In this document: positions 382-5,268 of the stretch, piece after piece
How positions within the stretch are numbered: the stretch's first letter is position 1
Layout of the letters: each line of letters opens with the position of its first letter
From: Candidatus Parcubacteria bacterium
Lineage (GTDB): Bacteria; Patescibacteriota; Minisyncoccia; Minisyncoccales; JAGLPU01
Reading direction: 5' to 3'
DNA length: 50,489 nt
Assembly: GCA_023137175.1 (NCBI GenBank)
Contig: JAGLPU010000005.1
Coordinates: forward strand, 1-50,489
Program-made: the position numbers and the translations under genes
The notes under the pieces: generated by a model
The model's input: only the letters and a program-made list of their open reading frames with translations
Databases searched by the model: none
Told to the model about the DNA's origin: nothing

Positions 382-453
382 TGCCCCCGGGCTGATTCGA
401 ACAGCCAGCTCCTCCTCCGGAGGGAGGTGTCTTATCCGTTAAACTACGGGGGC
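382..453 (-). tRNA. tRNA-Arg, anticodon CCG
   Basis: The minus strand folds into a full cloverleaf. The 7-bp acceptor is GCCCCCG with CGGGGGC and discriminator A. The anticodon stem is CCTCC/GGAGG around loop CTCCGGA, which gives anticodon CCG (codon CGG, Arg). The variable loop is AGCT. The T arm is GGCTG-TTCGAAT-CAGCC. No CCA is encoded. The 5' end (bases 439-453) lies inside the last codons and stop of the upstream methyltransferase gene, whose TAA falls in the D-arm region, so the tRNA is probably cut from a shared transcript. C34 means this tRNA is not itself a substrate for the wobble-uridine enzymes next door. Confidence 0.95.
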
Positions 454-1146
454 AGGCTTATGGGCTACAATATAAATATCGGAATATTTCCATTCTTTTC
501 CGGTAGTCCAAATTTTTGCTACCTCAAAATCTGCTTTTTCAGTTAAAGACTTCAGTTCATTTTTGGTAAAAAAATGATAATAGCGCGATGCTTTGTCCCC
601 CCAAGGGATAAAAGTATCGCCAAAGTCAAGTTTGGAAGCGCCAATGATTTTTAGAAATGTGCTCTTGATCAGCCTAAAAAGATTTTGTTTATCCCGACAT
701 TCCCAAACATTCCAAACCGTTAAAATTAAAGTTCCTCCCGGTTTAAGCACTCTATTCGCTTCAGCTAAAAATTGGGTTCTAAATTCTTGGGAAGGAAGGT
801 TGTGCAAGGCTCTAATGCTGTAAATTTTGTCAAAATGATTATCAGGAAAGGGCAGATTTAAAGCGTCTGCCGTCTGGAAATGCAAGTGGGGATAATTTTC
901 TTTTGCTATTTCAATCAACTCGCCGGAATTATCAACGCCAACATAGTCTATTTTTTTGTCTTTGAAAATTTTATATAAACGACCATTGCCACAGCCCAAA
1001 TCCAAAACCCTTTCTTCTGGAACAACATATTCTTTCAAACAATCAATGTCCCAAACAAAACCTCTTGACCTTGTAAAATGCAGGGCAATTCGGTTATAAT
1101 TCTGACAAGTTTCCTTTAATAAATATTTTGCGTATTCTCTATCCAT
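439..1146 (-). CDS. Trm9/ALKBH8-type SAM-dependent tRNA wobble-uridine methyltransferase-like protein
   Basis: Class I SAM methyltransferase of 235 aa. Seen: an N-terminal NYNRIALHF segment (residues 16-24), motif I VLDLGCGNG (47-55), acidic D72, ADALNLPFPD (93-102), ALHNL, post-motif VLKPGG (133-138), then DTFIPWG (177-183) and RYYHFF (188-193). The PW and RYYH elements and the N-terminal segment are hallmarks of Trm9 and the ALKBH8 methyltransferase domain, which methyl-esterify cm5U34 to mcm5U34 in tRNA; general SAM methyltransferases lack them. An upstream in-frame ATG at 1176 exists, but it would overlap the divergent elp3 gene, and residues 1-20 from 1146 fit the family, so I chose 1146. 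The start is only 3 bp from the elp3 start, and the 3' end overlaps the tRNA-Arg by 15 nt. Eukaryotic Trm9 needs Trm112; none is seen here. Function is inferred from motifs. Confidence 0.8.
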   Translation of the reverse strand: MDREYAKYLLKETCQNYNRIALHFTRSRGFVWDIDCLKEYVVPEERVLDLGCGNGRLYKIFKDKKIDYVGVDNSGELIEIAKENYPHLHFQTADALNLPFPDNHFDKIYSIRALHNLPSQEFRTQFLAEANRVLKPGGTLILTVWNVWECRDKQNLFRLIKSTFLKIIGASKLDFGDTFIPWGDKASRYYHFFTKNELKSLTEKADFEVAKIWTTGKEWKYSDIYIVAHKPAPVV

Positions 1147-1149
1147 AAA

Positions 1150-2745
1150 ATGCAAACTGCTCAAGCCATAATCCAAAAACTAATTAAAGATAAAGCAAAA
1201 ACTGTGGAGGATTTGGCATTGGCAAAAAGAAGAGTGGCTAAAGAGCTAAACTCCTCTCTTCCCACTAATGTAAAACTTTTAGCAGTATATCACAATTTGC
1301 TCCGGGAAAAAAGAATTACCAAGTCTGAAACTTTAGAAAAGCTTCTAATTAAAAGGGGCATTCGCAGCCTTTCTGGAGTAATAGTGGTTTCAGTATTAAC
1401 CAAACCCTATTCTTGTCCGGGAAAATGCATTTACTGCCCTACCGAAAAAGGAATACCGAAAAGTTATTTGTCGGGAGAACCGGCAGTAGAAAGAGCCAAA
1501 GCGTTAAAATACGATCCTTATCTACAAACCAAAACAAGAATAGACAGCTTATCAAAACAGGGGCACCCGATTGATAAAGTTGAACTGAGAATTATTGGCG
1601 CCACATGGAGTTCCTACCCTAAACAATATCAAGTCTGGTTTATAAAAGAATGCTTTAGGGCGGCCAATGAATTCTTGGCCGATAAAAAACAGCCCAGTAG
1701 TAAAAAAACCAGCTGGCCCGAGCTTAAAAGAGAACAGAGAAAGAACGAAAAAACCAAATGCCGTCTTGTGGGTATTAGCATAGAAACTCGGCCGGATTCA
1801 GTTGATCTGAAAGAGATCATCAACTTAAGAAAATTGGGTGTAACCATGGTTGAAATCGGCGTACAAACCATCTTTGACGATATTTTGGAAAAATGCAAAA
1901 GAGGGCATCTGGTGGAAGAAACAATAGCTGCCACTAAACTTCTTAAAAATGCCGGCTTTAAAGTAATGTACCAAATGATGCCCAATCTTCCCGGCTCCAG
2001 CTTAAAAAGAGATCTTACTTGTTTCAAATCTCTTTTTAACGACTCTAAGCTTAAACCCGACTGGCTGAAAATTTATCCTTGCCTGGTCTGCAAGGGCTCG
2101 GAGCTTTATGAACTTTGGAAACAAAAAAAATATCATCCCTACACAGACAAAGAATTGACTGAGCTTTTGATCGCAATTAAAAAAATCATTCCTTACTGGG
2201 TAAGGCTCAGTAGATTAATAAGAGACATCCCTGCATTTCAAATTGAAGCCGGCTGCAAAATTTCAAATCTAAGAGAAATAATTCAGAAAAAATTCAAAGA
2301 AAAAGGAATAAGATGCAACTGCATAAGATGCCGGGAAGTGAGAGAAAGATACAACCCCAAGGAAAAAATTGAACTTCATAGAGAAGACTATGATGCCTCC
2401 GAAGGCAAAGAAATATTCTTGAGCTTTGAAAATAAGGAGAAAACAAAACTTTTTGCCTATTTAAGGTTAAGAATTTCTTCTAATCTGTTGCCAGTGTTAA
2501 AAAACGCTGCTCTTGTCAGAGAACTACATACCTTTGGACAAATGGTGCCGGTAGGCAAAAAAGCTTGCCTAGCACAACACAAAGGACTGGGCAAAAAATT
2601 GCTCAAAGAAGCGGAAAAGATAAGCAGAAAAGAATTCAAACTAAATAAAATTGCCGTGATTTCCGGCATTGGCGCAAGAGATTATTTTCGCAAAACAGAC
2701 TATCGCCTAAAAGACAATTACATGGTGAAAACTCTACCTTTTTAA
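1150..2745 (+). CDS. elp3: Elp3-family tRNA uridine(34) acetyltransferase (radical SAM + GNAT)
   Basis: Protein of 531 aa, close to the size of known single-chain Elp3. The radical-SAM cysteine motif CPGKCIYCP lies at residues 89-97, followed by GIPKSYLSGEPA and YDPYLQ, both typical of Elp3, and a GATWSSYP segment matching the family's GGTWS loop. The C-terminal GNAT domain (about 420-531) has RELHTFGQMVPVG, HKGLGKKLL (acetyl-CoA loop), ISGIGARDYFRKTDYR and a final YMVK, all Elp3 landmarks. Known role: transfer of an acetyl-derived carboxymethyl group to C5 of U34, giving cm5U. In bacteria and archaea Elp3 can act without Elp1/2/4-6. The divergent Trm9-like neighbour could take the product on to mcm5U. 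A possible promoter, TTGTAA-18 bp-TATAAT (1071-1100), lies inside the neighbour's coding region. Confidence 0.92.
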   Translation: MQTAQAIIQKLIKDKAKTVEDLALAKRRVAKELNSSLPTNVKLLAVYHNLLREKRITKSETLEKLLIKRGIRSLSGVIVVSVLTKPYSCPGKCIYCPTEKGIPKSYLSGEPAVERAKALKYDPYLQTKTRIDSLSKQGHPIDKVELRIIGATWSSYPKQYQVWFIKECFRAANEFLADKKQPSSKKTSWPELKREQRKNEKTKCRLVGISIETRPDSVDLKEIINLRKLGVTMVEIGVQTIFDDILEKCKRGHLVEETIAATKLLKNAGFKVMYQMMPNLPGSSLKRDLTCFKSLFNDSKLKPDWLKIYPCLVCKGSELYELWKQKKYHPYTDKELTELLIAIKKIIPYWVRLSRLIRDIPAFQIEAGCKISNLREIIQKKFKEKGIRCNCIRCREVRERYNPKEKIELHREDYDASEGKEIFLSFENKEKTKLFAYLRLRISSNLLPVLKNAALVRELHTFGQMVPVGKKACLAQHKGLGKKLLKEAEKISRKEFKLNKIAVISGIGARDYFRKTDYRLKDNYMVKTLPF

Positions 2746-4395: not shown

Positions 4396-5268
4396 TCAAA
4401 TAATTAAAGTAATCAAAAACCCTATTAAAGAAGATAAAGCGATGGGAGGCAAGGCAGGTATAGGCTTTCTATTTTCCTGCCTGATAAAAAGCCAAAAACT
4501 GGCCAAGAGCCCTATTAAAGAAAAAACCGCAACGATTAAAGAATTATTTATTCCCTGCGGAAGCAGAGAAATACAAAAAATCATCGGAAAAACAACATCA
4601 CCTCCTCCTAAAATTAAAAATTCTCTTTTAACGGCTTGAGAATCAGTTCTTACTTTTTCCAGCTGCGCTCCGAAATCGGAAATCTTTTGCGGAATAATTA
4701 AGGCCAGAATAGCCTTATGTTCTATCATTTCTCTAGCCATCTTCACCATGTGTTTTGTCTTATAAACAGCAATGAAATCATATATTGAAAAAAGCACCAA
4801 TAGCCATACTATCGCATAAGGGTCAAGGGTTAAACCTAAAATAACTCCTGCTCCAACTAAGCCTAAAATAAGGCAGATATTATGGTTTAAAACTAAAGGC
4901 TGTTTATGCCACCAAAAAACCAATAACCCCATTAAAACCATTGCTGGCAAAGAACTGAGCCACAAATTAAGAGTAAGAGTTCCTCCCCACCAGACAGTCA
5001 AGACAAAAAGACTTTTATAAACTATTTTCTTCTTTTTTCTTTGTTTTATTATAAAAAGAATAAAAAAAAGAACAGAGACAGCCAAAATAAACTGCAGAAT
5101 AAACTGTCCTAAAGAAACCTGCGGTAAAGAAATAATTTCCTTTTCTGAAAATTCATTCACTCTTAAACCGGCGATTAAACCCAATCCCAAAGTAAGAGAA
5201 AATAAAAAAACTTCTCCTAAAAGAATTCTCCAGGGAACTATTCTTTGAGTTGTTGCGCTGTTTTGCAT
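4396..5268 (-). CDS. Presenilin/SPP-type intramembrane aspartyl protease (A22-like)
   Basis: 290 aa with about nine hydrophobic segments. All three signatures of the GxGD protease family are present: YD at residues 163-164 in a membrane helix, GGGD at 221-224, and PALPP at 271-275. The two aspartates D164 and D224 are the expected catalytic pair. Known relatives (archaeal PSH, signal peptide peptidase) cut single-pass helices and leftover signal peptides in the membrane. Gene order on the minus strand is Mur ligase, a 44-aa ORF, this gene, then the HPS-like gene, with small gaps, so an operon is likely. TGA is the stop. Confidence 0.87.
   Translation of the reverse strand: MQNSATTQRIVPWRILLGEVFLFSLTLGLGLIAGLRVNEFSEKEIISLPQVSLGQFILQFILAVSVLFFILFIIKQRKKKKIVYKSLFVLTVWWGGTLTLNLWLSSLPAMVLMGLLVFWWHKQPLVLNHNICLILGLVGAGVILGLTLDPYAIVWLLVLFSIYDFIAVYKTKHMVKMAREMIEHKAILALIIPQKISDFGAQLEKVRTDSQAVKREFLILGGGDVVFPMIFCISLLPQGINNSLIVAVFSLIGLLASFWLFIRQENRKPIPALPPIALSSLIGFLITLII

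Follow-up and report, generated by a model that had tools for sequence, protein, structure and literature searches.

Prediction of an Elp3 and Trm9 pair in archaea dates back to 2008 (PMC2584109), and mcm5U has been reported in Haloferax, according to PMC7663514. The original prediction for the locus described here had placed the mcm5U route mainly in eukaryotes; the eukaryotic part stands, but these two sources add the archaea. In a review (PMC5372719, citing Selvadurai 2014), archaeal Elp3 alone is stated to make cm5U34 in vitro. The same review considers bacterial homologues of the Trm112-dependent methyltransferases undetectable. In the review PMC7663514, bacterial Elp3 is said to be confined to Dehalococcoides and no evidence of any xcm5U in bacteria is recognised. 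Our search found no literature linking Elp3 with Patescibacteria in the manner reported below; earlier publication in a subscription journal or as a preprint is not excluded.

The locus examined here is bacterial. Its divergent gene pair quite likely constitutes a minimal two-enzyme pathway to mcm5U34 (mcm5s2U34 together with MnmA), which replaces MnmEG and dispenses with Trm112 and the other Elongator subunits; nucleoside or enzyme data are not available for it.

Gene layout and the Elp3 partner

The window, that is, the whole stretch of DNA analysed (50,489 nucleotides), is contig 30 of a 779 kb genome that is about 90% complete. Its assignment to a CPR bacterium is right, because the near relatives that bear names are Candidatus Nealsonbacteria and other Paceibacterota/Parcubacteria. 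The window starts, in order, with a partial ORF, tRNA-Arg(CCG), the methyltransferase and Elp3, and both ORFs of the predicted head-to-head pair were found in place, with their ATGs 3 bp apart. The word "divergent", which had been applied to Elp3, suits its orientation but not its sequence, which is well conserved. Elsewhere in the window, positions 4396-5268 of the minus strand encode a bacterial signal-peptide-peptidase/presenilin-type aspartyl protease (PF06550, 6.3e-22). The main features of the locus are as follows.

382-453, minus strand: tRNA-Arg(CCG), whose gene overlaps that of the methyltransferase at the latter's 3' end; kept as the same-strand neighbour directly 3' of the Elp3-linked methyltransferase at 44 of 99 distinct loci
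439-1146, minus strand: putative class I SAM methyltransferase resembling Trm9, 235 aa, with a TAA stop at 439-441; Methyltransf_11 3.3e-23; Trm9 first in PDB profile searches; AlphaFold2 pLDDT 96.4
1147-1149, no strand: 3 bp gap separating the two divergent starts; relatives have start codons that abut or that lie on one CATG palindrome
1150-2745, plus strand: Elp3, predicted radical SAM/KAT cm5U34 synthase, 531 aa plus stop; TIGR01211 569.7 bits (cut-off 350); phmmer match to archaeal Elp3 3.8e-127

This tight packing recurs. Where starts could be placed, their spacing is between -20 and +100 bp at 47 of 55 loci. The divergent starts abut or overlap, and the methyltransferase ATG follows a C in 25/68, which would fit a single CATG palindrome serving both genes as their start; neither a promoter nor a ribosome site would then have space between them. 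A promoter shared by the pair was considered and rejected: there is no intergenic DNA, and promoter-like sites turned out to be no commoner than in shuffles. On the other side, tRNA-Arg(CCG) overlaps the methyltransferase or lies within 30 nt of it at 30 loci. The methyltransferase stop codon falls inside the tRNA at 16 loci, most often ending at tRNA nucleotide 10, as would be expected if the conserved U8-A9-G10 supplies the UAG. A stop codon in this position would be removed by RNase P maturation. The neighbouring tRNA-Arg has C34 and is therefore not itself a substrate of the U34 step.

The window Elp3 matches TIGR01211 from end to end (residues 7-529) and also matches the solved archaeal Elp3. 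In M. infernus Elp3 (MinElp3), residues K150, K266 and Y517 are required for tRNA-induced acetyl-CoA hydrolysis (PMC6367351). Alignment places the following sites in the window protein.

1414-1437, plus strand: 4Fe-4S motif CPGKCIYC (C89, C93, C96), CX3CX2C
1576-1578, plus strand: K143, equivalent of the catalytic MinElp3 K150
1960-1962, plus strand: K271, equivalent of MinElp3 K266
2314-2331, plus strand: linker cysteines CNCIRC (C389, C391, C394), a Zn/disulphide site typical of prokaryotic Elp3
2683-2685, plus strand: Y512, equivalent of MinElp3 Y517

The equivalents of K150, K266 and Y517 (MinElp3 numbering, with a mapping inferred from alignment) are retained in the order-level set, and the three radical-SAM Fe-S cysteines are invariant across 29 aligned orthologues. 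The position of MinElp3 Q461 is Glu in 29/29, and the Fe-S motif is CX3CX2C, whereas that of archaeal Elp3, CX4CX2C, is one residue longer. As judged from sequence, the window Elp3 is a conserved, non-degenerate enzyme; its formation of cm5U34 on tRNA is inferred, without biochemistry.

The methyltransferase and its nearest relatives

The methyltransferase carries a SAM motif together with the PW and RYYHFF elements that had been claimed for it, located at residues 181-182 and 188-193. Pfam and NCBIfam recognise only a generic class I methyltransferase: NCBIfam offers no equivalog, its best curated matches all lie far under cut-off, and none of the curated models among the matches listed is Trm9-specific. 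The single sequence matches Yarrowia Trm9 (5cm2_Z) at 2e-12 in an alignment that takes in the C-terminal RYYH region. Four profiles were each searched against all solved structures (PDB): A1, from 26 order-level orthologues; A2, from the whole family of 79 members; A3, from seven distant Elp3-linked members; and A4, from two DPANN proteins only. A better match to another methyltransferase family would have told against the original prediction, and none appeared. Trm9 came first with A1 at 1.3e-22, a small lead over 1ve3 (2.8e-22), and likewise with A2 (2.6e-29; runner-up 1.6e-26), A3 (2e-23; 3.3e-19) and A4 (2.9e-16; 9.9e-14), in alignments that reach through the C-terminal lid. In the reciprocal direction, the Yarrowia Trm9 fragment gives a median of 52.8 bits with Elp3-linked methyltransferases (n=96, some loci entered twice) vs. 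11.9 bits with 22 unlinked paralogues of the same genomes (p=3e-13). The pattern RYx[HY]x[FY] occurs in 69/96 of the former and 0/22 of the latter. By these comparisons, which remain comparisons of sequences, the closest solved relative of the methyltransferase is Trm9.

CmoM structures are found among the weak A3 matches, and CmoM performs the same chemistry, carboxyl methylation on the C5 side chain of U34. The methyltransferase might then esterify some other wobble base that carries a carboxyl group, in the way that CmoM esterifies cmo5U34. We give this option next to no credence: the CmoM structures (8joz, 4htf) reach only about 7e-9 against 2e-23 for Trm9 with the same profile, and the synthase to which the gene is linked is Elp3, the maker of cm5U.

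Mutation of R29, H115, R241, Y243 or N271 in ScTrm9 lowers tRNA affinity and kcat (PMC5372719). The ScTrm9 numbers were mapped via Yarrowia Trm9, so that the equivalences below are inferred.

1063-1065, minus strand: R28, corresponding by inference to ScTrm9 R29; 76/79 aligned sequences have R (mutant data, PMC5372719)
802-804, minus strand: H115, corresponding by inference to ScTrm9 H115; 76/79 have H (PMC5372719)
568-618, minus strand: predicted two-stranded lid (strands 177-182 and 186-191) bearing PW and RYYHFF, like the lid of Trm9; AlphaFold2 model, lid described in PMC5372719
478-480, minus strand: D223, corresponding by inference to ScTrm9 N271; 72/79 have Asn and 3 have Asp, the window copy among them

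Four of the five mutation-tested active-site residues appear to have window equivalents: R28, H115, R188 (for R241, kept in 63/79) and Y190 (for Y243, kept in 38/79). The Y243 position varies across the family (Y/F/V/I/L). The fifth is D223, whose mapping is inferred because that end of Trm9 lies outside the alignments. An Asp in the window copy where ScTrm9 has N271 and the variable Y243 position both count against the reading of a Trm9-type enzyme.

The AlphaFold2 model shows the two-stranded lid with PW and RYYH, and the lid region aligns to 5cm2 with the A2 profile. A Foldseek search with the model places Trm9 at rank 2. In structure comparison METTL6 is at the top, with Z 24.1 vs. 20.8 for the Trm9 chain, which is shorter and lacks its first ~40 residues; all 1000 of the 1000 chains compared exceed Z 8. 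Fold comparison on its own was dropped as evidence for Trm9, since every class I methyltransferase scores high and METTL6 is first.

The rank of METTL6 nevertheless raises the possibility that the methyltransferase has a different site or group of the same tRNAs as its target, for instance m3C32 as in enzymes of METTL6/Trm140 type, and is paired with Elp3 since both modify the anticodon loop. The Asp at the N271 position is also in line with this, and the substrate evidence is not direct. However, METTL6/Trm140, top by structural Z, is absent among the listed matches of the A1, A2 and A3 profiles, where Trm9 is first; the Trm9-type lid and the H and R residues are retained; and Z rises with length, while the Trm9 chain is a truncated one. 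An m3C32-type activity therefore seems unlikely to us, and a methyltransferase of Trm9 type remains the preferred reading.

Linkage to Elp3 and the wobble-uridine context

Co-occurrence with Elp3 across Patescibacteria, which the original prediction had named as a check, turned out to be very strong. Among 40 order-level genomes, with the methyltransferase counted at E below 1e-30, it is present in 29, 28 of which have Elp3; Elp3 without the methyltransferase occurs in 2. In a phylum sample of 192 Patescibacteria genomes, Elp3 is found in 48/49 genomes with a strong methyltransferase match vs. 22/143 without (Fisher p=7e-27, uncorrected for shared ancestry). The two genes are divergent within 3 kb of each other for 44 of 52 methyltransferases of this sample, two weaker but adjacent matches included, and the presence of the methyltransferase follows Elp3 even when the genes lie on separate contigs. 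A scan of named genomes, in which loci were picked by methyltransferase similarity only, revealed Elp3 at 68/80 loci, mostly head to head. The pair was rightly placed in a CPR bacterium, but it is not specific to one; its linkage holds at 26-29% identity in Anaerolineales and beyond. Elp3-linked loci with 26-36% identity occur in Anaerolineales (26-27%), Microgenomates (26%), a Pacearchaeon (35%) and an Aenigmarchaeon (32%); the position of the distant members in the tree is weakly supported. The loci assigned to Bacteroidetes (L124, which shares 91% identity with Anaerolineales L127) and Nanoarchaeia (L076) are apparently misbinned and were not counted as separate lineages. Distances of the methyltransferase and Elp3 correlate with r=0.84, to which shared species history contributes; without a species-tree control, this was not taken as proof. 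The genomic linkage is tight, wide and deep, and the pairing is neither chance nor local.

Linkage might still be inherited synteny without joint function, the methyltransferase having an unrelated substrate, perhaps a small molecule. A class I fold is generic, and gene order in CPR can stay conserved within orders. This explanation is very hard to uphold, as the linkage survives across phyla and domains at such low identity, the methyltransferase tracks Elp3 onto other contigs, the distances correlate (with the reservation made above), and the nearest relative, Trm9, is itself a U34 enzyme. We hold to a joint function of the two enzymes at U34.

Elp3 without a clear Trm9-like partner was seen in about 20 of the 70 Elp3-bearing genomes of the phylum sample, and therefore cm5U alone may suffice there; this counts against the proposed reading. 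Whole families have Elp3 and no recognisable partner, namely f62 (e.g., 7 genomes) and f58, which suggests cm5U or another derivative as the end product in them.

MnmE and MnmG exceed the cut-off in 0/40 order-level genomes, while the same searches pass in 9 control genomes. MnmG-like partial matches in the order mostly cover the first ~33 residues (the FAD-binding start) of ~310-aa proteins and were rejected as MnmG. Across the phylum sample MnmG is over the cut-off in only 4/192 genomes, none of which has Elp3. More than 100 of the 192 genomes lack both MnmG (found in 4) and Elp3 (found in ~70). The window's own genome contains MnmA/TrmU (326.7 bits), and its U34 tRNAs include Lys-UUU, Glu-UUC, Gln-UUG, Arg-UCU and Leu-UAA.

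That no Trm112 is seen had been noted for the window, and this extends to its own ~90%-complete genome, in which a search for Trm112 (PF03966) gave no match; Haloferax, which encodes Trm112, served as the control. In the phylum sample, Trm112 is over the cut-off in 8/192 genomes, 2 of which have a strong methyltransferase match. Since the search for Trm112 in its genome was negative, the methyltransferase is not grouped with the Trm9-Trm112 holoenzymes. The Trm9 enzymes studied so far work with Trm112, and for this reason its not being found here counts against the proposed reading.

A putative Elp3-Trm9-like route among described systems

In the proposed pathway, Elp3 alone, with acetyl-CoA and a SAM radical, would attach a carboxymethyl group to C5 of U34, giving cm5U34. 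The Trm9-like enzyme, with SAM, would methylate the carboxylate to mcm5U34, and MnmA could add the 2-thio group on suitable tRNAs, yielding mcm5s2U34 on Lys, Glu and Gln tRNAs. The pair would thereby stand in for the missing bacterial MnmE/MnmG. What was observed is the identity of Elp3 and its catalytic residues, the rank of Trm9 as the closest solved relative, whose lid and most of whose active-site residues are shared, the linkage and the absence of MnmEG. The cm5U34 substrate, the product, methyl esterification and independence of Trm112 are inferred, no chemistry having been demonstrated. The two-enzyme mcm5U34 reading of the original prediction thus gains support from profiles and linkage, but its chemical part is still an inference in the absence of nucleoside data from these bacteria.

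The pair might also lead beyond mcm5U to ncm5U or cnm5U, in which case mcm5U would be an intermediate or a by-product. Some archaea are known to contain ncm5U (PMC5372719), which also builds up in a yeast trm9 mutant according to the title of PMC3110198; yet a non-systematic look revealed no amidating or nitrile-forming partner adjoining the pair. We regard such a further product as improbable and retain mcm5U34, with or without the 2-thio group, as the presumed end product.

Beyond this genome, and with less assurance, we lean towards the view that a large share of the Patescibacteria, along with some Chloroflexota and some DPANN archaea, relies on a Trm112-free Elp3-Trm9-like pathway as the sole C5 wobble-uridine system, making mcm5(s2)U34. 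In many of them it would be a module without intergenic space, whose starts share or abut CATG and whose methyltransferase stop lies inside tRNA-Arg. The "eukaryotic" tRNA mark mcm5U probably exists in bacteria, and many ultra-small Patescibacteria without the usual wobble enzymes carry the pair start to start. If this holds, the statements of PMC5372719 and PMC7663514 on bacterial Trm9 homologues and Elp3 look outdated, and U34 modification is explained in a bacterial radiation without MnmEG. A Trm9-type enzyme without a partner would provide a simple pair for mechanistic work, and the finding would matter for the question of how the Elongator pathway common to archaea and eukaryotes arose.

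Like the eukaryotic Trm9-Trm112/ALKBH8 methyltransferase, the window enzyme has a class I fold, 5cm2 as its nearest solved relative, the PW/RYYH lid, equivalents of R29, H115, R241 and Y243, and a pairing with Elp3. It differs in being bacterial, in that Trm112 was not found, in having Asp for N271 and in a gene divergent from Elp3. Bacterial MnmE-MnmG (cmnm5U34/nm5U34) serves the same tRNA position and role by different chemistry and proteins, and is absent from 40/40 order-level genomes. Dehalococcoides mccartyi DmcElp3 is likewise a bacterial stand-alone Elp3 with linker Zn cysteines; the available text on it presents it as a rarity among bacteria, for which no xcm5U product is known, and describes no methyltransferase partner. 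The archaeal Elp3 and Trm9 predicted for Haloferax and Sulfolobus (PMC2584109) also combine an Elp3 without other Elongator subunits with a Trm9 homologue, and in S. solfataricus the two are likewise clustered. Haloferax encodes Trm112, whereas the window system is bacterial, is arranged head to head and has MnmA rather than Tuc1.
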